Shown: one piece after another, positions 20,317 to 31,748 of the stretch
Layout of the letters: each line of letters begins with the position of its first letter
How positions within the stretch are numbered: the stretch's first letter is position 1
Assembly (NCBI GenBank): GCA_035946615.1
Contig: DASYZB010000024.1
Location: 1 to 46,846 of the forward strand
Direction: 5' to 3'
Source: Verrucomicrobiia bacterium
GTDB lineage: Bacteria > Verrucomicrobiota > Verrucomicrobiia > Limisphaerales > UBA8199
Length of the DNA: 46,846 bases
The notes under the pieces: model-generated
What the model saw: only the letters and a program-made list of their open reading frames with translations
What the model was told of the DNA's origin: nothing
The model's database searches: none
Program-made: the position numbers and the translations under genes

Positions 20317-20949
20317 TTAATTTCGGTTCGTTTTGACCAACTCTCCAAGGAGACGGACGGTTTCCTGGGTGTCCTGGTTCAAACCGACCTGTTGGTGGAC
20401 AATCTCGCCTTTTGCGTTCAGAATTGTGATGATGTTCGAGTGGGCGAATTGCCCTGCGGCGCTCTCTTTAAATTTGACGCCGAGTAAAGCGGCCAGCTCC
20501 AGCACGTCGTCCGGAGGACCCAGCATCAGTGTCCAGCTTTTGAGTGGCAAATCCCGCGTCCGCCGGTATTCGGCCAGCGCCGCTGGAGTGTCGCGCTCGC
20601 AATCAAACGAAACGAGCGTGAAGCCGACGCTGCCCTGCAATTGGGCCGGCAAGGCCGCTTCGATGCGTTTCATGTCATTCACGATAATCGGACAGGCAAA
20701 CTGGCAATTCGCGAAAAACATCGCCATGACTTGGGGCCGTCCGGCGAGCGCGCTCAACTTGATATGTTTCCCCTGGTCAGTCGTCCATGTAGATTCCGTC
20801 TGGAAAACGGATTTGTCAGTAAATGCTGCCGACGCCTCTGCCTTGACGCAGCAAGAAGGCTGCGCGGCGACTGGGGACGATTGTGTCACACAACTCCCCA
20901 GCGTGAGGATTGCAAGGCTGACGAATACTGTTTTTGGGTTGGGTTTCAT
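20317..20949 (-). CDS. SCO1/SenC copper-chaperone lipoprotein
   Basis: A 210-residue thioredoxin-fold lipoprotein that delivers copper to, or reduces, periplasmic copper enzymes. Lipobox LGSC places the lipidated cysteine at 20. The copper ligands are complete: C82 and C86 in NCQFACP and H170 in FAHSN. The Cys pair C33/C34 in the linker is unusual. The ATG overlaps the nirV stop by four bases (ATGA), and nirV overlaps nirK, so the chaperone is made together with the copper nitrite reductase it probably serves. Confidence 0.9.
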   Translation of the reverse strand: MKPNPKTVFVSLAILTLGSCVTQSSPVAAQPSCCVKAEASAAFTDKSVFQTESTWTTDQGKHIKLSALAGRPQVMAMFFANCQFACPIIVNDMKRIEAALPAQLQGSVGFTLVSFDCERDTPAALAEYRRTRDLPLKSWTLMLGPPDDVLELAALLGVKFKESAAGQFAHSNIITILNAKGEIVHQQVGLNQDTQETVRLLGELVKTNRN

Positions 20950-21776
20950 AAATCTTTCGCGCAACGGAAGCCGAGATTGTGGACGCAATAGCCCGCTTTG
21001 AGGCTGCTACGGAATGCGTAGCGCATGAAGGCCGGATAATCTTGAACGTCCGCCGCTCCTTGAGCGCCACCACCACAAAACAGTTGGCGATCCAGTCCGG
21101 TGTCGCCCTGTGCGCCGCCGGCGAGCAGGGCCGAGTTGAAATCGGCCACCCATTCCCAAACCAGTTCGTGCAAATCGTGAATTCCCCAGAAATTCGTCTG
21201 GTCCAAACCCACAGGTGAAAGTTTCGCCGTCGCGGGAGTGCAGTACCATTTCAGCACTTGGCGTTTGAACTCCGGGTCCTGCTCGCCGTTGGCTTGCGTC
21301 GAACTGGCCGACGCGGCGTACTCCCATTCGGTGACGGTTGGCAACCGTTTGCCTTTCCATTGCGCGTAAGCTTTGGCGGCAAACCAGGAAACGTCTGTCA
21401 CCGGGACACTGGCGGGCGCGTTGGAACCGGGGTCGAGATCGCCGGCCCAATTCTTGAGATAGAATTCGTCGGCGAAAATCTTTTTCACCCGCGAGCGTTG
21501 CCAGCGATGATTGGCCCGGACGAATGCCAAAAAGTCGCCGTTTGTGACGGGCAGAATATCGAGGTAAAACGATTTAACCCGAACCCCTTTGGGATCTGAT
21601 TCCGAGCGAAAAAGCGGATGATACATTCCGGTTGGAACCAAAGCCATGCCGGTCGGCGGAGTTTGTCCAAGCATTGGAACAACTGCGCCGAGAAGCGCAA
21701 AGAGCGCCACAACCCAAATTCGATTCCAGGCCTTGAAAGCGGTTTTTTTCACTGACTTGTGTGCGTATCTATTCAT
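20946..21776 (-). CDS. nirV: NirV-like formylglycine-generating-enzyme-fold protein
   Basis: A 276-residue exported protein with an N-terminal hydrophobic segment (about 20-38) and the SUMF1/FGE-sulfatase fold: [68 protein letters not shown] and LGFRCAKDL. NirV proteins of this fold are regularly paired with nirK in denitrifiers; their role in copper nitrite reductase maturation is not established. The start overlaps the nirK stop by eight bases. The enzyme-type cysteine pair of true FGE is not evident. Confidence 0.85.
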
Positions 21777-23325
21777 AAGGGTTGGCCTGGGCCGGAGGAG
21801 CTTCGTGCCGGACCTTGGCGACTTCCTGGATGGTCACGGCGGCGTTGGAATTTCCCCAGCTATTGCCCACATAGGTCAACACATTCGCGATTTGTTCGTC
21901 CGTAAGGTAAGGCAGCGGTATCATCGTTCCGTTATAAGGTTTGCCATTGACGACAATTGGACCGCTGCGGCCCGAGATTACACCGCGAATGATATTCTCC
22001 TTGTCTTTGGTCGCAAGAAAGTCCGAGAGCGCCAGCGGAGGAATCTGCCCTGGAAGCCCCTGGCCGTTGGGCTGGTGGCAGACAAAACAGGTTTGCATAA
22101 AGACCCCTTTACCTTTTTGGATTTGAATCTGCTTGTTCAAATCGGCGATCTTTGGATTGCCTTTAATCTGCTGCGCAACTTCCGCTGTCAATGCGAGGAC
22201 TCTCTTTTCAGCCTCCGAACCAGCTTCGGCCGCCTTGCCGATATAAGTGGCATCCACCTCCTTGCCGGAATAGACGAGCAGATTTTGCGGTCCGTCCACT
22301 TTCAACATGCCGAGTGCTCCCTTGTTGAAGGCGCGGAAGATCGCGTGATCAACCAGAACATACGTGCCGGGCGCATGGGCCTTGAAATCCACCACGACAG
22401 CCGAACCGGGCGGCACTGGCGTGGTTTGGACGTTATGCAAAACGTTAGTCATCGTGCCGTCCTCGTAGAGGGTGTCGAATTGTCCACCGATGATGTGAAA
22501 CGAGGAAGTAAGATTCGGCCCGCCGTTGCCAAAGAATAGCCGGGTGGTTTCGCCGACTTTCGCCTTTAAAGCCCGATCGCCGACGAGCGAGTCCACCGCG
22601 CCGTTGAACACCACGTACGGCGGCTTCTCGTCCACCGCCTTAACCATGTCGAAGCCCTGCAAGCCTTCCTCGCCAAACTGGCCGGTGGCGTAAAACTCGC
22701 CCTGCATGACGTAATACTCATGGTCCACCGGCGGCAAACCTTCCTTCGGCTCAACGAGAATCAAACCATACATGCCATTGCCGATGTGCATGCCCACTGG
22801 CGCGGTCGCGCAGTGATAAACAAAAAGGCCGCAATGAAGGGCCTTGAACGAGAACACAGACGAATGCCCCGGCGCGGTGAACGATGAAGCCGCGCCCCCG
22901 CCCGGTCCACTGACCGCGTGCAGGTCAATGCTGTGTGGCATTTTATTATCTTGATGATTGTTCAAATGAAACTCCACCTGGTCGCCTTCGCGGATGCGAA
23001 TGAAACTTCCCGGCACATCGCCGCCAAAGGTCCAGAAGACATACTGGACACCGTCCGCCAGGCGCTTGGTTACCTCCCTGACCTCCAGATTGACGATTAC
23101 TTTGGTGGGGTGTTTGCGCCTGATGGGCGGCGGAACATTGGGCGCTTGCGCCAAGATCGCGGTTTCAACTCCGGTGACGCCAGGGTCAATCACTTTTGCG
23201 CCATTAGGCTGCGCAGCCGTTTCGTCCTGCCCGACTGACACTTGGCCTGCCATCAAACCTGCCACAAGCGCGGCGGCGGCAGACTTCCGCAGGATTGGAA
23301 CAAATCGAATAATCATCATCCTCAC
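21769..23325 (-). CDS. nirK: Copper nitrite reductase fused to cytochrome c
   Basis: A 518-residue periplasmic enzyme reducing nitrite to nitric oxide. After a signal peptide come two cupredoxin domains with all copper ligands: type 1 copper H131, C172, H180 and M185; type 2 copper H136, H171 and H327; active-site D134 and H277. A C-terminal cytochrome c domain follows (CFVCH at 413-417, likely Met ligand M468), so electrons can enter within the same chain, as in Ralstonia-type fusions. The listed start is GTG; ATG codons at 23319 and 23316 sit closer to GAGG and may be used. It is co-transcribed with nirV and sco downstream and with the hemerythrin-containing genes upstream. Confidence 0.95.
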
Positions 23326-24556: not shown

Positions 24557-25177
24557 TCAGGTTTTAAGAGACTGATCGTGTTGCTCGAATCGGAGTTTCA
24601 GATACTCGCCAATCAAGATTGCGGCGGGATAAAACACCACCTCGTCCGTCCACGCCCGCAGCATAAGATGTTCGGTGAATGCCACTAGTCTGAGTTTTCC
24701 CTCCGCGCCTGCCGCATGCGCCACTTTGCGCGATGCCTCGATGATGGCTATATGCTCCCTCATGATTTCGAACATGCGGGACTTCAAATGCTCGGCCTTC
24801 AGGGGAACGCTCCTCATTTCGGCAGTGATCTTGCCTTGCGCCAGCGGAACCAACAGTCCCAAGATTTGGAGCAAGTCTTCCTCTTCCTTCAAAAGGTGCG
24901 GCTGCAGAACTTTTAGAAGTTTCCTGGCTGCCTTGGCAGTCTTGCCGCCGGAAAGAATGGCGCGCTCAAGAGCGGCACACAGATCGTTCTGGTCAATCCT
25001 CAATGGTTCCGGGATTTTGAACTCCTGCGGTTGATCGCTTTGATTCTCGCGAGTGGTGAGCGCTTTTTCCCGGCGCGCTCTGGCTTGGCCGCAAGAGCAT
25101 AAGGCGGAGCCGGCCGCCCGGCTCTGGCCTGAATGACGGATGCCGGATGAATTCGAGACTTGATTTTGAATTTTCAT
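24557..25177 (-). CDS. Hemerythrin-like (HHE) domain protein
   Basis: A 206-residue cytoplasmic protein whose residues 60-200 form a four-helix bundle of the HHE type: HLLKEEEDLL, MREHIAIIEASRKVAH and FTEHLMLRAWTDEVVFYPAA carry the His/Glu ligands expected for a di-iron site. Such proteins bind oxygen or nitric oxide or act in iron-sulfur repair (as YtfE/RIC). The first 50 residues, rich in Ser, Ala and Arg with SALCSCGQ, are unlike the family and may be a translated non-coding leader; a later start is possible. Its place in the nirK operon fits nitric-oxide handling. Confidence 0.8.
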   Translation of the reverse strand: MKIQNQVSNSSGIRHSGQSRAAGSALCSCGQARARREKALTTRENQSDQPQEFKIPEPLRIDQNDLCAALERAILSGGKTAKAARKLLKVLQPHLLKEEEDLLQILGLLVPLAQGKITAEMRSVPLKAEHLKSRMFEIMREHIAIIEASRKVAHAAGAEGKLRLVAFTEHLMLRAWTDEVVFYPAAILIGEYLKLRFEQHDQSLKT

Positions 25178-25210: not shown

Positions 25211-25558
25211 TCAGGGACGAGTCATAGTCAGGATCATCTTGAAGCGCTGGAGTGCTTTGAGCGCGTGGGGCTGCTGGGCGGGCATCAGGATCAATTCACC
25301 GCCCTTGACATGATGCGGCTGGCCGGAAATTGTGATTTCCGCTTCGCCTTCGACTATCTGGACCAGGGCGTTGAACGGGGAAGTGTGCTCGCTCAAACCT
25401 TCCCCTTGATCGAAGGCAAACACCATGACCTTGCCGTTGGCGCCTTTTAAAATTTCCCGGCTGACAATCGCCCCGCTCTGGTAATCCGCCAACGCGGCGA
25501 CATTAACCGCGCGGGCAGGCTCCAACTTGTCTTCCGTTGAATTCTTATTCTGAGACAT
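25211..25558 (-). CDS. Cupin-domain protein, leftward operon copy
   Basis: A 115-residue single-domain cupin: SEHTSPFNALVQIVEGEAEITISG is cupin motif 1 and GGELILMPAQQPHALKAL motif 2, with one His in each able to bind a metal. The sequence is clearly paralogous to the cupin beginning the rightward operon (26869). These small cupins recur near DUF2249 and hemerythrin genes; function unknown. The longer open frame overlaps tetR and is not used; the ATG at 25558 overlaps the tetR stop by 14 bases. Confidence 0.85.
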   Translation of the reverse strand: MSQNKNSTEDKLEPARAVNVAALADYQSGAIVSREILKGANGKVMVFAFDQGEGLSEHTSPFNALVQIVEGEAEITISGQPHHVKGGELILMPAQQPHALKALQRFKMILTMTRP

Positions 25559-26243
25559 AATTGTGATCTTTCTTTGTGGCGCTGAATTTGGCTTCCCTGT
25601 TTCGTGTTCCAGAGCCAACTCTGGAACACGTCCGATTTTCGTCCTTCCGCAGCATCTGGCGATACAAATGCCACGCCCGCTCGGTGTGCCGAACGACATC
25701 AAAGGCTCCGTTGCTCATGAGCCAGAGGATGATGGCCGGTTGGACCAGGCCCAAAAACATTACCGCGGCCGTGTCCGGGGAAATGTTGGCCCGGATTTGG
25801 CCTTGCCGCCGACCTTCGGCGATGATGCCGGCGATTTTTTGCAGATACGCCTCAAGGACCTGATGAATCCGCCGTCTCCGGGCGGAGCTACCGGCGAAGA
25901 TTTGTTCGGAAAATATCACCCGGGGAATGCCTGCATGGTGGCGAACCACTTGGATGTGCCGCATCAAGAGAAGATGAAGGCGCTCCAGCGCATCGGGGGT
26001 CGCCCGGCAAACTGTTTCGACATTGGCCAGCAGAATCTTGGAGATCAGGTCGAGCACCGACTCCAGCACTTCGTCTTTGCCGGAGTAATGACGATAAATG
26101 GCCGAAGGCACGACGCCGACTTCCCGGGCCAAAGCCGCGATATTGAGATGATTCAGACCGCGCCGGGCGATCAGGACCAGCGCCGCGCGGGCAATCTGTT
26201 CCTGACGAATCTCGGTCTTGATATTCCTCGCACGCCGGTTCAT
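25545..26243 (-). CDS. TetR/AcrR-family regulator of the nirK operon
   Basis: A 232-residue repressor. The helix-turn-helix lies at about residues 28-50 (NHLNIAALAREVGVVPSAIYRHYSGKDEVLE); the remainder is an all-helical ligand domain. The effector is unknown. ATG 26243 is preferred to a GTG at 26273 because the latter lies within a near-perfect palindromic operator that probably belongs to the untranslated leader. It is the first gene of the leftward operon and so likely represses its own promoter together with nirK. Confidence 0.87.
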   Translation of the reverse strand: MNRRARNIKTEIRQEQIARAALVLIARRGLNHLNIAALAREVGVVPSAIYRHYSGKDEVLESVLDLISKILLANVETVCRATPDALERLHLLLMRHIQVVRHHAGIPRVIFSEQIFAGSSARRRRIHQVLEAYLQKIAGIIAEGRRQGQIRANISPDTAAVMFLGLVQPAIILWLMSNGAFDVVRHTERAWHLYRQMLRKDENRTCSRVGSGTRNREAKFSATKKDHNYVSE

Positions 26244-26251
26244 CCTATATG

Positions 26252-26273
26252 GTGAAAGTGAATTCACATTCAC
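26252..26273. promoter_or_regulatory. Putative TetR operator over the nirK-operon start site
   Basis: A 22-bp inverted repeat built around GTGAATTCAC with outer GTGAA/TTCAC arms; only one of eleven pairs is mismatched. It covers the transcription start predicted from the Crp/Fnr-type box (26267) and lies just upstream of the tetR ATG, so a bound repressor would block initiation. Confidence 0.6.
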
Positions 26274-26315
26274 ATCCTATGGCCGTACCAGACTGTATTC
26301 CTTGACTTAAGTCAA
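26274..26315 (-). promoter_or_regulatory. Crp/Fnr-type class II promoter of the nirK operon
   Basis: Box TTGA-CTTAAG-TCAA at 26302-26315, inside a 24-bp perfect palindrome (26297-26320). On the minus strand TAGGAT (26279-26274) is 29.5 bases from the box centre and gives a start at 26267, 24 bases before the tetR ATG. In the plus direction the same box is 55 bases from the DUF488 ATG, but the hexamer at the matching place (TACCTC) is poor. Confidence 0.7.
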
Positions 26316-26363
26316 GGAATTGCACGATATGTGAGATTACCTCGGGGAAATGGAAGAACGACT

Positions 26364-26774
26364 ATGATTCGAATCAAACGAGTTTATGAACCAGTCGGCA
26401 GAACGGGCGAACCTCGGTTTCTAGTCGAACGCCTTTGGCCTCGGGGCATTAAGAAAGCTGCGCTGCACATGACGGGCTGGATCAAGGGTGTTGCGCCCGG
26501 CGATGCGTTGCGCCGCTGGTTCAATCATGATCCGGCTAAATGGGAAGAGTTCCAGCGCCGCTACCGGGCCGAGTTGGACGGCAAACCTGAGACCTGGCGG
26601 CCATTGCTTCAAGCGGCTGGAAATGGCGATGTGACGCTGCTGTTCAGCGCGCATGACATTGAACACAACAACGCAGTCGTGCTAAAGGTTTATCTTGATG
26701 AGCGGCTCAGGGAGAGGAAAAAGAGGGCAGGGCGTGGACGAATGCAACCGGTTTCGCCGCGGTCTTGCGTCTAA
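26364..26774 (+). CDS. DUF488 family protein
   Basis: A 136-residue soluble protein with the DUF488 pattern: IRIKRVYEPVGRTGEPRFLVERLWPRGIKK, then WFNHDPAKWEEFQRRY and VTLLFSAHDIEHNNAVVLK. The family is widespread and has been linked to heme or stress responses, but its biochemical role is unsettled. GGAAG lies eight bases before the ATG. It is divergent from tetR and shares the Crp/Fnr-type box region, so it may be co-regulated. The last 20 residues are Arg-rich. Confidence 0.85.
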   Translation: MIRIKRVYEPVGRTGEPRFLVERLWPRGIKKAALHMTGWIKGVAPGDALRRWFNHDPAKWEEFQRRYRAELDGKPETWRPLLQAAGNGDVTLLFSAHDIEHNNAVVLKVYLDERLRERKKRAGRGRMQPVSPRSCV

Positions 26775-26819: not shown

Positions 26820-26861
26820 TTGACCCAGGTCAAAGCGTCAATTGCCTTTCGCGGTCAAAGT
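26820..26861 (+). promoter_or_regulatory. Crp/Fnr-type box of the rightward operon
   Basis: TTGA-CCCAGG-TCAA at 26820-26833. The class II geometry puts the start at 26868, one base before the ATG at 26869; the hexamer at the -10 place, CAAAGT (26856-26861), matches the consensus at only three positions, so strong activator dependence would be needed. Confidence 0.55.
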
Positions 26862-26868
26862 TAAGCGC

Positions 26869-27264
26869 ATGAAGGAACAACCGCTCATTGATTCCGCCAG
26901 CGAGAAAATCCTCTCGTTGCGCGCTGAAACCCAATACGCGCCCAACGGCATTGTCGGCCGTACCCTGCTGCGCACCGCCAATTCGCGCACGGTGCTTTTC
27001 GGTTTCGCGGGGGGGGGGCAGGAACTGACCGAACATACTTCCACCCAACATGCGGTGATTCAGATTTTATCCGGCTCGTGCGAATTTTTCCTGTCGGGTA
27101 TGCCGCGAACCCTGAAGACCGGCGATCTGTTGTATATGTCACCCAACCTCACGCACGCGGTGAAAGCCATGGAGCAATTCTGCATGTTGCTAACCTTGTC
27201 CAAGCCAGCCCGGATTCCTGATCCGGCGCCGCAAATTCAAACCGCGTTGGCTGCCCAAGTCTGA
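26869..27264 (+). CDS. Cupin-domain protein, rightward operon copy
   Basis: A 131-residue cupin paralogous to the one at 25211-25558: TEHTSTQHAVIQILSGSCEFFLSG and GDLLYMSPNLTHAVKAM are the two motifs, with metal-binding His in each. It opens the rightward operon. The ATG coincides with the start predicted from the Crp/Fnr-type box, which implies a leaderless message. A TTG 27 bases upstream is possible but would lie upstream of that start site. Function unknown. Confidence 0.85.
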   Translation: MKEQPLIDSASEKILSLRAETQYAPNGIVGRTLLRTANSRTVLFGFAGGGQELTEHTSTQHAVIQILSGSCEFFLSGMPRTLKTGDLLYMSPNLTHAVKAMEQFCMLLTLSKPARIPDPAPQIQTALAAQV

Positions 27265-27282: not shown

Positions 27283-27801
27283 ATGAACAAAAAGACCGTA
27301 ACCCTGGATGTGCGAGATGACATTCGCTGTGGGCGTGAACCGTTCTCAAAAATCATGAAAGCCGCCGCCGCGATGCAGGCGGATGAAAGTTTGCTGCTGA
27401 TCGCACCTTTTGAACCGGTGCCGTTGTTTCGGGTTTTGGAAAAGCAGGGCTTCGTCCACGATGGCCAAGCCACCGAGTCTGGCGATTGGGAAATCCGGTT
27501 CACGCGCCAGTCAGGCGCAACCCCGACGGAAGCCGCGCTGGCGTCTTCTCCCGTTCGGCAGAGCAACGGAATTGCACCGGCTCCCGCGCAAATCGTGGAG
27601 GTGGACGCCCGGGGACTTGAGCCACCGCAACCCATGATCAAAATTCTTGAAGCTCTGGTCGCGCTTCCTGCGGGCGCGGAACTCCGCGCCCGGACGGAGC
27701 GCCGCCCCATGCATCTCTATCCACACCTTGAAGAACGTGGTTTCACTGCGGCAACCGAAGAACAATCTGATGGAAGCTTCCTTACCCATATCAGCCGTTA
27801 A
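27283..27801 (+). CDS. Protein with two DUF2249 domains
   Basis: A 172-residue soluble protein made of two DUF2249 units: residues 5-75 (LDVRDDIRCGREPFSKIMKAA, LLIAPFEPVPLF) and 105-172 (VDARGLEPPQPMIKILEAL, LRARTERRPMHLYPHLEERGF). The fold resembles TusA/SirA. The domain is repeatedly found with nitric-oxide and denitrification genes and hemerythrins, but its job is not established. It follows the cupin by 18 bases and overlaps the next gene by 32. Confidence 0.85.
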   Translation: MNKKTVTLDVRDDIRCGREPFSKIMKAAAAMQADESLLLIAPFEPVPLFRVLEKQGFVHDGQATESGDWEIRFTRQSGATPTEAALASSPVRQSNGIAPAPAQIVEVDARGLEPPQPMIKILEALVALPAGAELRARTERRPMHLYPHLEERGFTAATEEQSDGSFLTHISR

Positions 27802-29218
27802 TCCGCCCACGGCGCGTCCGGCTGTTGCTGCGCCGCTCTTGGGGGCAACCGCGCCCTCGGTGACGTTACCGCTGATATTCACCCTGACCGGTTTGCTCGC
27901 GCTCTGCGTGGGCATCGTCTGGCTCGTGATCCAACCCAGCATCCTTGCCACCTACCACTACAACCAGAACGTCATCGCCGCGACCCACCTGTTTGTGCTG
28001 GGTTGGATTTGCTCCGTCGTCATGGGGGCGATGTATCAACTGGTGCCGGTCGCGCTCGAAACCAAGCTTTACAGCGAAAAACTCGCGCGCTGGCAATTTG
28101 CCTTTCATGTGGTGGGATTCGTTGGAATGGTCTGGATGTTTCGGGTTTGGAATATGGAACAAGTTGGGCATTTCGGCACTGTGCTGGCGGTGGGCGTCGG
28201 CCTTTTCGTGTATAACATCGCGCGAACCCTTTGGCGTGTGCCGAAGTGGAATGTCACAGCCACGTCTGTGAGCGCGGCGCTTGCTTGGATTTGCCTGACT
28301 ATAATTCTGGGCCTCTGCATCACGGCGGCGAAATCAAGCACCGAATACGAATTTGGATCCGAACGGTCTCCCACCGGGACAGTGGCCGCGCTCCTTCACG
28401 GAGTAAGGTTGGGGACGGCTTTTCTAAGGCCCTCTGGGGGTATCAGCACTATGCACGCTCATGCGCATCTGGGTGGCGTGGGTTTCTTTATGATGCTGAT
28501 CGTTGGTGTATCCTACAAACTCATCCCGATGTTCACGCTGAGCGAAGTGCAGAACCAGCGCCGTGCGGTGGGCAGTGTCATCCTGCTCAACGTTGGGCTG
28601 GCGGGTTCTTTCGTAACGATTCTGCGCCACAGTCCGGTGAAGCCGGTTTTTGCCCTGATGGTGGTTGCGGCGCTGGCGGTTTACGGCTGGGAACTCAAGG
28701 CCATTCTGCGCGCCCGCAAACGCCGGGCGCTGGATTGGGGAGTCAAGTGCTTTTTGACAGCCATCGTGCTGCTATTGCCGCTGTCCGTACTGGCGGTTGT
28801 GCTGTCCTGGCCCGCTTTGCCGCAGAACACATTTAGCGGACAACTCGAAAACCTCTACGGTTTCCTCGGACTGATCGGAGCGGTCACCTTGGCTATCACC
28901 GGCATGCTCTACAAAATCATCCCCTTTCTTGTCTGGTTCGGCCGTTACAGCCGGCAAATCGGCCGCAGTAAAGTTCCCGCGCTGGCGGACCTTTATTCCG
29001 CCCGGCTGCAAGCGCTGGGTTACTGGGCCTGGCTGACCGGGCTTGCCGTAACGGGTGCAGCCATCGTCTTGTCCTGCGAAACAGGCATCCGCATCGGTTG
29101 CGGTTTCCTGGCCCTGGGAGTGGCGACTCTCGCGCTGAACGTCGGCAAAATGCTCTCCCATTATTTCAAACTAAGTCCATTTCCTGTGCCAATTTCAACC
29201 TTGTCCAAAACAGCATGA
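27770..29218 (+). CDS. 12-TM membrane protein resembling heme-copper oxidase subunit I
   Basis: A 482-residue protein with about twelve hydrophobic segments. Three related blocks, each ending Y-x-(L/I)-(V/I)-P, occur at intervals (Y89-P93, Y249-P253, Y381-P385), so the protein seems to be built from three four-helix units, as is subunit I of heme-copper oxidases and nitric-oxide reductases. Histidines suited to metal binding lie in the first two units (H73; H229, H231 and H233) but not at the matching place of the third (NLYGFLG), so a canonical set of six ligands is not present. NnrS-like or NO-binding function is possible. The ATG chosen lies inside the previous gene. Confidence 0.65.
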   Translation: MEASLPISAVNPPTARPAVAAPLLGATAPSVTLPLIFTLTGLLALCVGIVWLVIQPSILATYHYNQNVIAATHLFVLGWICSVVMGAMYQLVPVALETKLYSEKLARWQFAFHVVGFVGMVWMFRVWNMEQVGHFGTVLAVGVGLFVYNIARTLWRVPKWNVTATSVSAALAWICLTIILGLCITAAKSSTEYEFGSERSPTGTVAALLHGVRLGTAFLRPSGGISTMHAHAHLGGVGFFMMLIVGVSYKLIPMFTLSEVQNQRRAVGSVILLNVGLAGSFVTILRHSPVKPVFALMVVAALAVYGWELKAILRARKRRALDWGVKCFLTAIVLLLPLSVLAVVLSWPALPQNTFSGQLENLYGFLGLIGAVTLAITGMLYKIIPFLVWFGRYSRQIGRSKVPALADLYSARLQALGYWAWLTGLAVTGAAIVLSCETGIRIGCGFLALGVATLALNVGKMLSHYFKLSPFPVPISTLSKTA

Positions 29219-29532
29219 CCAACAATGAAATCACCGAAGAGGCCATCCGTGAAGCCTTGCGTCAGGTTATTGACCCGGAACTGGGCTGCAACATTGTGGA
29301 CCTGGGTTTGATTTACAAGGTCTCCATCACGGGCCAAAAAGCGACCGTGGTGATGACGCTCACCACGCCCGGCTGCCCAATGCACGAAAGCATCCGTTGG
29401 GGCGCGCAGCAGGCGCTGCTCAACCTCGCCGGAGTGGAGTCCGCCGAAGTCGAAGTGGTCTGGGAACCGCCGTGGCACCCCTCCATGATGACCAAATTCG
29501 GACGGGATGCCACCGGCGTTGGAAGTTTTTAA
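29215..29532 (+). CDS. MIP18/PaaD-type iron-sulfur assembly protein
   Basis: A 105-residue protein of the metal-sulfur-cluster-assembly (DUF59) family: EALRQVIDPELGCNIVDLGLIYKV and VMTLTTPGCPMHESIRWGAQQAL with the conserved Cys. Relatives (SufT, PaaD, CIA2) help to insert iron-sulfur clusters. In this place it may repair or build clusters damaged by nitric oxide. The ATG overlaps the previous stop by four bases (ATGA). The ending WEPPWHPSMMTKFGR is typical of the short bacterial group. Confidence 0.88.
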   Translation: MTNNEITEEAIREALRQVIDPELGCNIVDLGLIYKVSITGQKATVVMTLTTPGCPMHESIRWGAQQALLNLAGVESAEVEVVWEPPWHPSMMTKFGRDATGVGSF

Positions 29533-29571: not shown

Positions 29572-29886
29572 ATGAACAAAACAGCGCAAAGCGAAAACCT
29601 AATAGGGCCGGATCAAGTCATGGACGTGCGACCCATCCCCTGTTCGGTTAAACACGGCCTGATTATTCAAACGTGGCTCAACCTGCCGGTCGGTGGTCAT
29701 TTCATCCTGCTCAACGACCACGATCCCGTACCGCTCTATTACCAATTCTCCGCCCAATGGCCCGGAGCGTTCACCTGGGAGCACCTGGTCAAAGGACCGG
29801 AGGAATTCCGCGTCAAGATCACTAAACTCAAAGCTTCGGAGGAAGCTGTGGCCGAAACGGAATCCGCCTGCGGCTGCCGCCACTAA
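29572..29886 (+). CDS. DUF2249 protein
   Basis: A 104-residue single DUF2249 domain with the full motif set: MDVRPIPCSVKHGLIIQTW, HFILLNDHDPVPLYYQFSAQWPGAFTWEHLVKGP. The NDHDP-PLYYQ string marks the group usually beside hemerythrins. The tail CGCRH could bind metal. It starts 39 bases after the MIP18 gene and ends 7 bases before the hemerythrin remnant. Confidence 0.87.
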   Translation: MNKTAQSENLIGPDQVMDVRPIPCSVKHGLIIQTWLNLPVGGHFILLNDHDPVPLYYQFSAQWPGAFTWEHLVKGPEEFRVKITKLKASEEAVAETESACGCRH

Positions 29887-30137: not shown

Positions 30138-30533
30138 TCAGACTTCCGGGGCTTTTCTAAAACCATCCAGCCAGTGGCGCAGGCTCATGACTGGATGTTC
30201 CCATACCATGCGCGGCCCGGCATAACGCATCACCGCCTTTACCTGCTCGCGGCGGTCGCGCTGGTAGCAATGGACAGGACAGTTCGCGCACGTCGGTTTT
30301 TCCGCGCCGAACCGGCAGCGTTCCAGCCGCACCGCTGCATAATCCAAAAGCCTTTGACATTCCGGGCATGGCGCCTCCGACATGCCATGATGATCCCGGC
30401 AATAGATTTTTATCACCACTTCCATTGTCTTCCATTCCCGGTTCAGCCGCGTGTCCGGGAAAGCAATGGGTTTGGTTTCTCGTGTGACGCTGGCGATAGT
30501 GTCCGATGCGCTTTGGTCAACGGTAATTTTCAT
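30138..30533 (-). CDS. YgbA-family protein (nitrous oxide-stimulated promoter family)
   Basis: A 131-residue protein with the YgbA pattern: VVIKIYCRDHHG, CPECQRLLDYAAVRLERCRFGAEKPTCANCPVHCY and VMRYAGPRMVWEHPVMSLRHWLDG. The many Cys suggest an iron-sulfur or zinc site. In enterobacteria ygbA belongs to the NO-responsive NsrR regulon; its function is little known. The ATG at 30533 is exactly the transcription start predicted from the Crp/Fnr-type box (see promoter), implying a leaderless message. Confidence 0.88.
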   Translation of the reverse strand: MKITVDQSASDTIASVTRETKPIAFPDTRLNREWKTMEVVIKIYCRDHHGMSEAPCPECQRLLDYAAVRLERCRFGAEKPTCANCPVHCYQRDRREQVKAVMRYAGPRMVWEHPVMSLRHWLDGFRKAPEV

Positions 30534-30539
30534 GCCATC

Positions 30540-30581
30540 ATTATCGCACACCAATCGCAAAAGCCTGTTGACGCAAGTCAA
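30540..30581 (-). promoter_or_regulatory. Crp/Fnr-type class II promoter of the ygbA-like gene
   Basis: Box TTGA-CGCAAG-TCAA at 30568-30581; GATAAT at 30545-30540 on the minus strand is exactly 29.5 bases from its centre. The start site so defined is 30533, the A of the ATG. Confidence 0.75.
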
Positions 30582-30622
30582 AGTTCTGATCAATTTATCG
30601 CCCGCGAAAAAGGCACAATTTA

Positions 30623-30664
30623 TTGATCCAAATCAAATCGGCGTCCGCCAGGATGGACGATAAT
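30623..30664 (+). promoter_or_regulatory. Crp/Fnr-type class II promoter before the regulator gene
   Basis: Box TTGAT-CCAA-ATCAA at 30623-30636, a textbook FNR/DNR sequence; GATAAT at 30659-30664 is 29.5 bases from its centre. The start would be near 30671. The downstream unit is the DGC/DUF2249 remnant and then the Crp/Fnr gene at 31026, so the regulator may control its own synthesis. Confidence 0.75.
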
Positions 30665-30690: not shown

Positions 30691-31023
30691 ATGAACAGCG
30701 AAAATCCAAGTCCACCAGCCCCAAGCAAACCAACCACCGTAGTCTATGCCTGTTCCGGCTACTCGGACGCAGGTGAAATCGCCGACCGCATCGCGCGTCA
30801 TCTCACGCGCGACGGCCCGGCAAAGATGTCCTGCCTCGCCGGCATCGGCGACCATTCCCTGAAATCCATAAGCGGGTGAACGCACTCAAACCGGACGAAG
30901 GCTTGATTGTTGTCGCGCCGTTTCTGCCTTGTCGAGCGGCTGGCTGGCGCCGGTTTCGCCAGCAAGGTCCAGCGCGGCAAGGGTAGCGACTGGCTGGTTT
31001 ACTTTTGGCGCAAGGGTGTTTGA
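30691..31023 (+). pseudogene. Fused remnants of a DGC zinc-protein and a DUF2249 gene
   Basis: The first 53 codons resemble the start of a DGC-domain (putative zinc-binding) protein: VVYACSGYSDAGEIADRIARHL and KMSCLAGIG; the second Cys of the usual CSGCSD is Tyr. The frame then stops at 30879. One base out of phase, PEIHKRVNALKPDEGLIVVAPFLP is part of a DUF2249 domain, which breaks again near 30932 and ends in a third stretch (LVERLAGAGFASKV to DWLVYFWRKGV, stop 31021-31023). Two indels or deletions are thus needed. The whole lies between a strong promoter and the Crp/Fnr gene, two bases upstream of its ATG. Confidence 0.75.
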
Positions 31024-31025
31024 AT

Positions 31026-31748
31026 ATGGTCGTGTCTGCACTGACCGAATTCAAAAAAAGCGCGATGATCATTTCATTGCGAGGCTGCCAGCTTTTCACC
31101 GGGCTGCCCTCGGCTGATTTGGAAAACATCGCCGAAGTGACCGTCGTAAAAACGCTGGAAAAGGGCGCCTATCTTTTTCACGAAGGGGACCCAGCTCACG
31201 GATTTTATGTCGTGCGGCGCGGCGCGGTAAATGTCCATCGGGTCAACGCGGCGGGGAAGGAACAGGTTATCCATGTTTTCCGTGCTGGGGATACGTTTGC
31301 CGAAGCGGCGCTGGCCTCGACAACCGGCTATCCCGCTGATGCGCGCGCATTGGAATCAACTCAGGTGTTGTTGGTGCAAAAGGACGGAATCTTGGCGTTG
31401 TTGAAACGCCAACCTGAACTTGCCTTGCGAATGCTCGGCTCCATGAGCAGTCATCTGCGGGTGCTGGTCAGCCAACTTGAAGATTTGACTCTCAAAGACG
31501 TGGAGACTCGCTTGGCGAACTGGCTTGTCAAACGATGCCCCAATCTCCAAAGCGACCAGCCTGTTCGCATTGAACTCACGATGGCCAAACGCGTGCTGGC
31601 GTCGGAATTGGGCACGGTCAGTGAAACCTTGTCCCGAACCCTGGCAAAATTCCGGGAGCAGAAACTTCTGACAGTGAAAGGCAAAACTATTGTGGTTCTG
31701 TCCCCAGCGAAGCTGCACGCGCTTCTGCGCCGGAATCTTGGGGAATAG
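31026..31748 (+). CDS. Crp/Fnr-family regulator (DNR/NnrR-like)
   Basis: A 240-residue activator: cyclic-nucleotide-type beta-roll (residues 20-130, with HEGDPAHGFYVVRRGAVNV), dimer helix, and winged helix (about 180-235). The recognition helix contains E200, S203 and R204 (VSETLSRTLAKFR), the E-x-x-S-R set that in FNR and DNR reads TTGA half-sites, matching the five boxes nearby. The N-terminal cysteine cluster of FNR is missing (only C21 and C171), so it is not an iron-sulfur oxygen sensor; a heme NO sensor like DNR/NnrR is likely. ATG 31026 directly follows the decayed gene. Confidence 0.9.
   Translation: MVVSALTEFKKSAMIISLRGCQLFTGLPSADLENIAEVTVVKTLEKGAYLFHEGDPAHGFYVVRRGAVNVHRVNAAGKEQVIHVFRAGDTFAEAALASTTGYPADARALESTQVLLVQKDGILALLKRQPELALRMLGSMSSHLRVLVSQLEDLTLKDVETRLANWLVKRCPNLQSDQPVRIELTMAKRVLASELGTVSETLSRTLAKFREQKLLTVKGKTIVVLSPAKLHALLRRNLGE

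Follow-up and report, generated by a model that had tools for sequence, protein, structure and literature searches.

A heme-copper oxidase-fold protein with a putative single displaced heme, encoded in a putative denitrification-associated operon of a Verrucomicrobiia bacterium

The locus and its neighbouring genes

The window (the whole stretch of DNA analysed, 46,846 nucleotides) contains an open reading frame on the plus strand that starts with an ATG at 27770, ends with a TGA at 29216-29218 and encodes a protein of 482 aa. The following genes and sites were found around it:

21769-23325 (-), NirK with a C-terminal cytochrome c fusion (TIGR02376, 6.3e-103, above cut-off; Cytochrom_C)
25545-26273, TetR gene, divergent from the DUF488 gene
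26302-26315, perfect FNR-type palindrome TTGACTTAAGTCAA, in the intergenic stretch separating TetR from DUF488
26331-26774, DUF488 gene, divergent from the TetR gene
26820-26833, FNR/Dnr-type palindrome TTGACCCAGGTCAA upstream of the operon (exact match)
26842-27264 (+), cupin, first gene of the putative operon; an ATG at 26869 is also a possible start (Pfam Cupin_2; homologue in 19 loci)
27283-27801 (+), double DUF2249 protein with a TusA-like C-terminus, overlapping the start of the 482-aa ORF by 32 bp (PF10006, 5.5e-33; adjoins the gene in most loci)
27770-29218 (+), oxidase-fold gene, 482 aa, 12 TM (Pfam COX1, 7.7e-13; AF2 pLDDT 88.9; Foldseek and VIA matches to CcoN and NorB)
29215-29532 (+), DUF59/MIP18 (FeS_assembly_P) protein, its ATG overlapping the stop of the 482-aa ORF in ATGA (PF01883, 1.4e-23)
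29572-29886 (+), DUF2249 protein (PF10006, 2.2e-22)
30138-30593 (-), YgbA_NO family protein (PF11756, 1.3e-41)
30568-30581 and 30623-30636, two FNR/Dnr-type palindromes at the start of ygbA (exact matches)
31005-31748 (+), Crp/Fnr-family regulator (PF00027, PF13545; homologue in 19 loci)

The 32-bp overlap with the DUF2249 gene and the ATGA shared with the DUF59 gene indicate a tight putative operon. Exact FNR/Dnr-type palindromes occur four times in the window, against 0.18 expected. A box of the FNR type was present 0.05-1.3 kb upstream of the gene in 15 of the 18 verrucomicrobial loci, and in a relative such a box lies directly upstream of the qNOR gene (L118:4330). Over the compared loci, homologues of the DUF2249 (27), cupin (19), Crp/Fnr (19), DUF59 (19) and NirK (10) genes recurred. 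In an Ignavibacteria locus (L020), the upstream gene has the architecture DUF1858-DUF2249-DUF2249, which is that of Thermus DrpB, a membrane-associated protein that controls nitrate respiration (PMC6282519). DUF2249 genes are also induced in denitrifying Haloferax (PMC11218638). The NO or denitrification setting that had been predicted for the gene is borne out by NirK-cytochrome c, DUF2249, DUF59, YgbA, Crp/Fnr and the FNR-type palindromes, although a gene neighbourhood tells the process and not the activity.

Elsewhere in the window, FGE-like and SCO1 genes accompany NirK-cytochrome c. On the minus strand of 20317-23325, the NirK-cytochrome c gene is followed by genes for an FGE-sulfatase-like protein and SCO1, and the same trio is found in L008, L014, L015 and L016, suggesting a set for maturation of the NirK copper site. 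The gene at 24557-25177 (-) is hemerythrin-like by eye and resembles the C-terminal half of L119:7414-8475; it had no Pfam or NCBIfam match.

Fold, internal repeat and distribution

The sole Pfam match of the 482-aa protein was COX1 (E 7.7e-13, 48.5 bits, above the curated cut-off). A search of solved structures with the lone sequence gave nothing useful; the family profile was needed, and it matched CcoN with E values of 1e-7 to 2e-6. The AF2 model (29-row alignment, no cofactor) had a mean pLDDT of 88.9 and a pTM of 0.88, and its 12 TM helices fall into three sets of four. By VIA the model matched CcoN (9g6b, 8smr and 3mk7) with Z 34.5-34.6 over about 390-400 residues at an rmsd of 2.7-3.0, and NorB with Z 32.8 (4xyd) and 30.9 (3o0r); Foldseek agreed with VIA (1.8e-6 to 9g6b). 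As modelled, the protein is a member of the heme-copper oxidase (HCO) / NO reductase superfamily with the 12-TM, pseudo-threefold subunit I fold. The original prediction of kinship to subunit I is supported by the COX1 match, the profile matches to solved structures and the predicted fold, including the comparison with CcoN (Z 34.5) and NorB (Z 32.8) that had been proposed as its check. Annotation by Pfam would read 'cytochrome c oxidase subunit I' and would thereby point wrongly to an enzyme of respiration or NO reduction in partial denitrifiers; the ligand analysis below speaks against this.

Three blocks ending in Y-x-(L/I)-(V/I)-P had been noticed in the sequence, and these were found as YQLVP (89-93), YKLIP (249-253) and YKIIP (381-385). 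They belong to three arcs of four helices, at about aa 25-158, 159-320 and 321-470. Profile alignments of arcs 1/2, 1/3 and 2/3 scored 73, 81 and 82 bits (E 2.5e-12 to 1.2e-13). The corresponding arc-versus-arc scores in CcoN/cNOR were 32, 69 and 56 bits, so the internal threefold repeat is clearer in the 482-aa family.

A protein search of 84,980 genomes yielded 33 related loci, in Verrucomicrobiota (mostly Limisphaerales), Ignavibacteria/Bacteroidota, one Deltaproteobacterium, Bacillota (Metabacillus) and Chloroflexi. Metabacillus malikii DSM 29005 is a cultivated carrier of the family. Within its own family and order the gene is patchy, a full-length copy being present in about 15 of 58 genomes.

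Conserved histidines and the predicted heme pore

In an alignment of 35 sequences, comprising relatives from several phyla, H73 (TM2) and H231 (TM6) were the only invariant histidines (35/35); the same two were found in an earlier alignment of 32 sequences. Within the motif helices, histidines had been reported in the first two blocks only. This distribution stands (H73 in TM2, H229/H231/H233 in TM6, none in TM10), but H233 (26/35) and H229 (21/35) are variable. Histidines also occur outside the motif helices, for instance H63, H113 and H464. The codons concerned are:

27986-27988 (+), H73, TM2, position P-20, putative heme b ligand 1 (35/35; aligns to CcoN H349)
28460-28462 (+), H231, TM6, position P-22, putative heme b ligand 2 (35/35; register of CcoN H60 and of the NorB TM2 His)
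28466-28468 (+), H233, TM6, position P-20, where CcoN has its CuB ligand H207; paired with Y363 (His in 26/35)
28856-28858 (+), Y363, TM10, position P-22, where CcoN has its heme b3 ligand H347 (Tyr in 26/35)

Registers were counted by hand on the CcoN and NorB sequences, taking the Y-x-L-I-P proline of each arc as zero and going backwards. In these proteins the low-spin heme b ligands are at P-20 of arc 3 and P-22 of arc 1, the heme b3 ligand is at P-22 of arc 3, and the CuB ligands are at P-20 of arc 2 and in the HH pair of TM7. We take the corresponding CcoN residues to be H349 (arc 3 P-20), H60 (arc 1 P-22), H347 (arc 3 P-22) and H207 (arc 2 P-20). Because the CcoN and NorB ligands sit in those registers, the rule read from these sequences is that P-20 of an arc faces P-22 of the next arc. 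H73 occupies P-20 of arc 1 and H231 occupies P-22 of arc 2; the two make up a full bis-His pair, moved on by one arc relative to CcoN and NorB. The remaining registers are occupied by A71 (arc 1 P-22), Y363 (arc 3 P-22) and F365 (arc 3 P-20). When the family profile was aligned to CcoN structures, arc 1 fell on TM9-11 with H73 on H349, and an arc 1-to-CcoN-type match was seen many times in scans of the relatives' genomes. The HMMER alignment of block 2 to CcoN TM1-2 is weak and places H60 two residues ahead of H231; the registers rest on the proline count.

Since H73 and H231 are in low-spin registers but on arcs 1 and 2, a heme b bound by them would lie in the pore that the oxidases leave empty. 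No oxidase or NO reductase of solved structure is known to hold a heme in the pore between arcs 1 and 2. This heme is proposed because two histidines occupy homologous registers; the AF2 model contains no cofactor. The HH pair of TM7/TM11 is absent from the 482-aa protein, the equivalents of CcoN H347, H207 and the TM7 HH are not kept as invariant histidines in the family, and no second conserved ligand set for a high-spin heme and CuB was present in the 35-sequence alignment. An enzyme of this superfamily would need six histidines, of which two bind the low-spin heme, one the high-spin heme and three CuB (or FeB); the family has two invariant ones. From these sequence data we infer one heme b and no O2- or NO-reducing centre; the unusual pocket probably houses the only heme that the protein keeps, and with all ligands of the binuclear centre gone the protein is not expected to be an oxidase or NO reductase. 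The original suggestion of a 'divergent, incomplete oxidase-type NO protein' holds for a one-heme, catalytically empty HCO homologue; an NO-reducing enzyme is not supported, every heme b3-CuB ligand being lost.

The residues at positions 233 and 363 combine as H-Y in 25 of the 35 sequences and as E-F in four, the rest being single other combinations. Their MI-APC rank was 211 of 71253 column pairs, with phylogeny not removed. This covariation fits a contact across the old catalytic pore as given by the register rule, which is suggestive only, and lineages with H233/Y363 may have a second site in that pore.

The position of the histidine pair raises the matter of arc order. Against the arcs of CcoN/cNOR, family arc 1 scored best on arc 3 (83 bits versus 56 and 41), family arc 2 on arc 1 (68 versus 48 and 25) and family arc 3 on arc 3 (54 versus 38 and 18). 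Whole-length scores were 160 for the order 3-1-2, 145 for 2-3-1 and 109 for 1-2-3; with the histidines masked they were 145 (3-1-2) versus 103 (1-2-3). The shifted preference held separately in the verrucomicrobial half and the other half of the family. A-type subunit I, used as a control, scored best in the canonical order 1-2-3 (178 versus 104 and 150), with all arcs on the diagonal. With A-type arcs as reference, family arc 2 had no preference for arc 1. A true circular permutation is favoured against the CcoN/cNOR arcs and not against the A-type arcs, and family arc 3 matches arc 3 of CcoN, not arc 2. Because the A-type arcs fail to reproduce the arc 2 preference, permutation is unproven and our claim is limited to a shifted heme site. 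A different pore kept from a symmetric ancestor explains the arc data equally well.

Proposed role, alternatives and related proteins

The computed features (the fold, the loss of catalytic ligands, the invariant histidine pair, the operon and the FNR-type boxes) are likely to describe a subunit I fold of the three-unit HCO-homology (HCOH) type, without the heme b3-CuB centre and with one bis-His heme b (H73 and H231), that is an accessory of the NO/denitrification regulon. Heme binding, the choice of pore, a redox or sensing role and the partner contacts are the inferred parts of this proposal. Under Fnr/Dnr-type control, the oxidase-fold protein would be made together with the DUF2249 and DUF59 proteins. 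Its heme b, in the H73/H231 pore, could be reduced from the quinone pool or could react in the membrane with NO; the DUF2249 and DUF59 partners in the cytoplasm might couple the heme to iron-sulfur protection or signalling. NnrS, which guards iron metabolism against NO, offers an analogy for such a protective role. We place protection or redox chemistry ahead of sensing, and regard DUF2249, the oxidase-fold protein and DUF59 as a conserved candidate gene set for NO tolerance outside Proteobacteria.

That no other NO reductase accompanies the gene had been noted from the sequence, and this is true both of the window and of the genome assembly (96% complete), in which a search for norB and norZ found neither. 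The other PF00115 matches in this genome were three oxidases of the caa3 type, one CcoNO and a single CcoN-like paralogue that lacks the usual histidines. Flavodiiron proteins (ODP domain), Hcp and globins were absent from the same genome, with positive controls detected. These absences, the NirK in the window and the H233/Y363 covariation (25 H-Y, 4 E-F) would suit a cryptic NO reductase or NO dismutase, in which the single heme and H233/Y363 form an unorthodox site that stands in for the missing enzyme. We consider this very improbable: nine of the 35 sequences have Glu, Ile, Leu or Ala at position 233, the TM7-type HH pair is absent, and a gNOR-like protein is present in Ignavibacteria. Moreover, in a near relative (G202) a true qNOR, NirK-cytochrome c and a family member are found within about 14 kb on one contig, the qNOR about 10 kb from the member, so the family does not replace NO reductase. 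Two other genomes (G206 and G210, assemblies of unstated completeness) had no COX1-family protein beyond the 482-aa family and single-arc proteins. The family therefore seems independent of a canonical oxidase or NO reductase, and an electron-transfer role in these genomes cannot depend on one.

A membrane sensor of NO or nitrite, passing the state of its heme to the adjacent DrpB-like DUF2249 protein and Crp/Fnr without any protective chemistry, is unlikely, though less so than a cryptic reductase. The DrpB architecture in L020, the role of DrpB in membrane-associated control of nitrate respiration (PMC6282519) and the Crp/Fnr genes at 19 loci are in its favour, but the work on Thermus DrpA/DrpB describes no oxidase-fold partner and the DUF59 partner indicates iron-sulfur maturation instead. 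Just as improbable as the reductase is a cofactor-free protein of this fold, for instance one that serves as a gas channel or as a scaffold subunit; the same genome does have a CcoN-like paralogue without the usual ligands beside an ActF-like gene (L038), but in the 482-aa family two histidines are invariant over phyla, in the exact registers of a heme pair. Membership of the NnrS family proper, one of the original suggestions, is the least credible reading and was rejected. Both kinds of protein have 12 TM helices, two key histidines and a setting of NO genes, and TM9-12 of NnrS is weakly similar to the single-arc neighbours of relatives. Nevertheless, PF05940 was unmatched even at E 10, hhalign gave E 0.004 with a probability of 8.7, and the heme-type histidines of NnrS sequences are in arcs 1 and 3, not in arcs 1 and 2. 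The NnrS profile did give matches in other genomes of the phylum.

Compared with known systems, the proposed one-heme protein shares with CcoN (3mk7, 8smr, 9g6b) and NorB (4xyd, 3o0r) the fold (Z 31-35) and the low-spin registers P-20 and P-22; it differs in lacking heme b3 and CuB and in having the heme pair one arc further round the ring. With NnrS, a presumed heme protein, it shares 12 TM helices and the NO regulon, but there is no significant sequence kinship and the histidines are on another pair of arcs. The HCOH proteins, which Pei, Li, Kinch and Grishin are said to have described in 2014, reportedly comprise single-unit 4-TM and three-unit 12-TM forms, the latter with two conserved histidines; they reportedly include NnrS, and many are said to be tied to denitrification. 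The 482-aa protein has three homologous 4-TM units whose relation to HCO TM9-12 can be detected, and two conserved histidines (H73 and H231, 35/35) that would serve one heme. It thus resembles the reported three-unit HCOH form in its 12 TM helices, homologous units, histidine pair and link to denitrification and DUF2249. It would belong to an already known HCOH kind, in which the displaced heme pore might already have been described. In its citing passage, PMC11218638 refers to Pei et al. 2014 for a link of DUF2249 to the HCO superfamily, and citing papers credit that work with novel HCO homologues tied to DUF2249 and N-oxide functions.

One oxidase-fold arc also occurs as a separate gene for a 4-TM protein (L027:4000-4452; also in L020, L021, L022, L023, L024, L028 and L029), two genes downstream of the family member in several of the L020-L029 loci. 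These proteins of 151-158 aa have the pattern SAHTHLILVGS...WFFPRP, with the P-22 and P-20 histidines both on one helix, and match Pfam COX1 at 1.3e-8 to 2.8e-9. By VIA, a single-arc model matched TM9-12 of oxidases, the last arc, with Z up to 15.9, followed by styrene oxide isomerase and MAPEG trimers; Foldseek gave no significant match for this model (best E 0.25). The single-arc HCO homologues, DUF2871, styrene oxide isomerase and MAPEG are alike in being one four-helix unit of the same fold. They differ from the 482-aa protein in having four helices and in being expected to trimerise, with P-22 and P-20 histidines sharing a helix. A homotrimer with three hemes is plausible.

If the heme b does occupy the HCO fold's third pore, the one between arcs 1 and 2, this would together with the single-arc proteins support an ancestor with three equivalent heme pores built of three 4-TM units; we hold this whole reading tentatively, as slightly less probable than its opposite. 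If true, the oxidases, which use two pores, and the 482-aa family, with a different pore or a permuted order, descend from a three-pore ancestor. The register rule makes a symmetric single-arc ancestor of the oxidases testable, and is a fast test of heme-capable pores in any HCO-fold protein.

Two further proteins of the superfamily were observed. The CcoN-like protein of 514 aa at L038:1330-2874 (G000:C134:22332-23696), which adjoins the ActF-like gene (alternative complex III), has no His at the ligand positions of TM2, TM6, TM7 or TM10; together with similar proteins in relatives (L064, L069, L073) it would suggest stepwise ligand loss. At L119:4239-5870 (-) a NOR/oxidase-type subunit of 543 aa is encoded that has Asp and no His in TM6 (gNOR-like). 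Its neighbours are CoxB-like, single-arc and hemerythrin-like genes and Crp/Fnr, and a second copy of the single-arc gene is located at L119:6531-6995.
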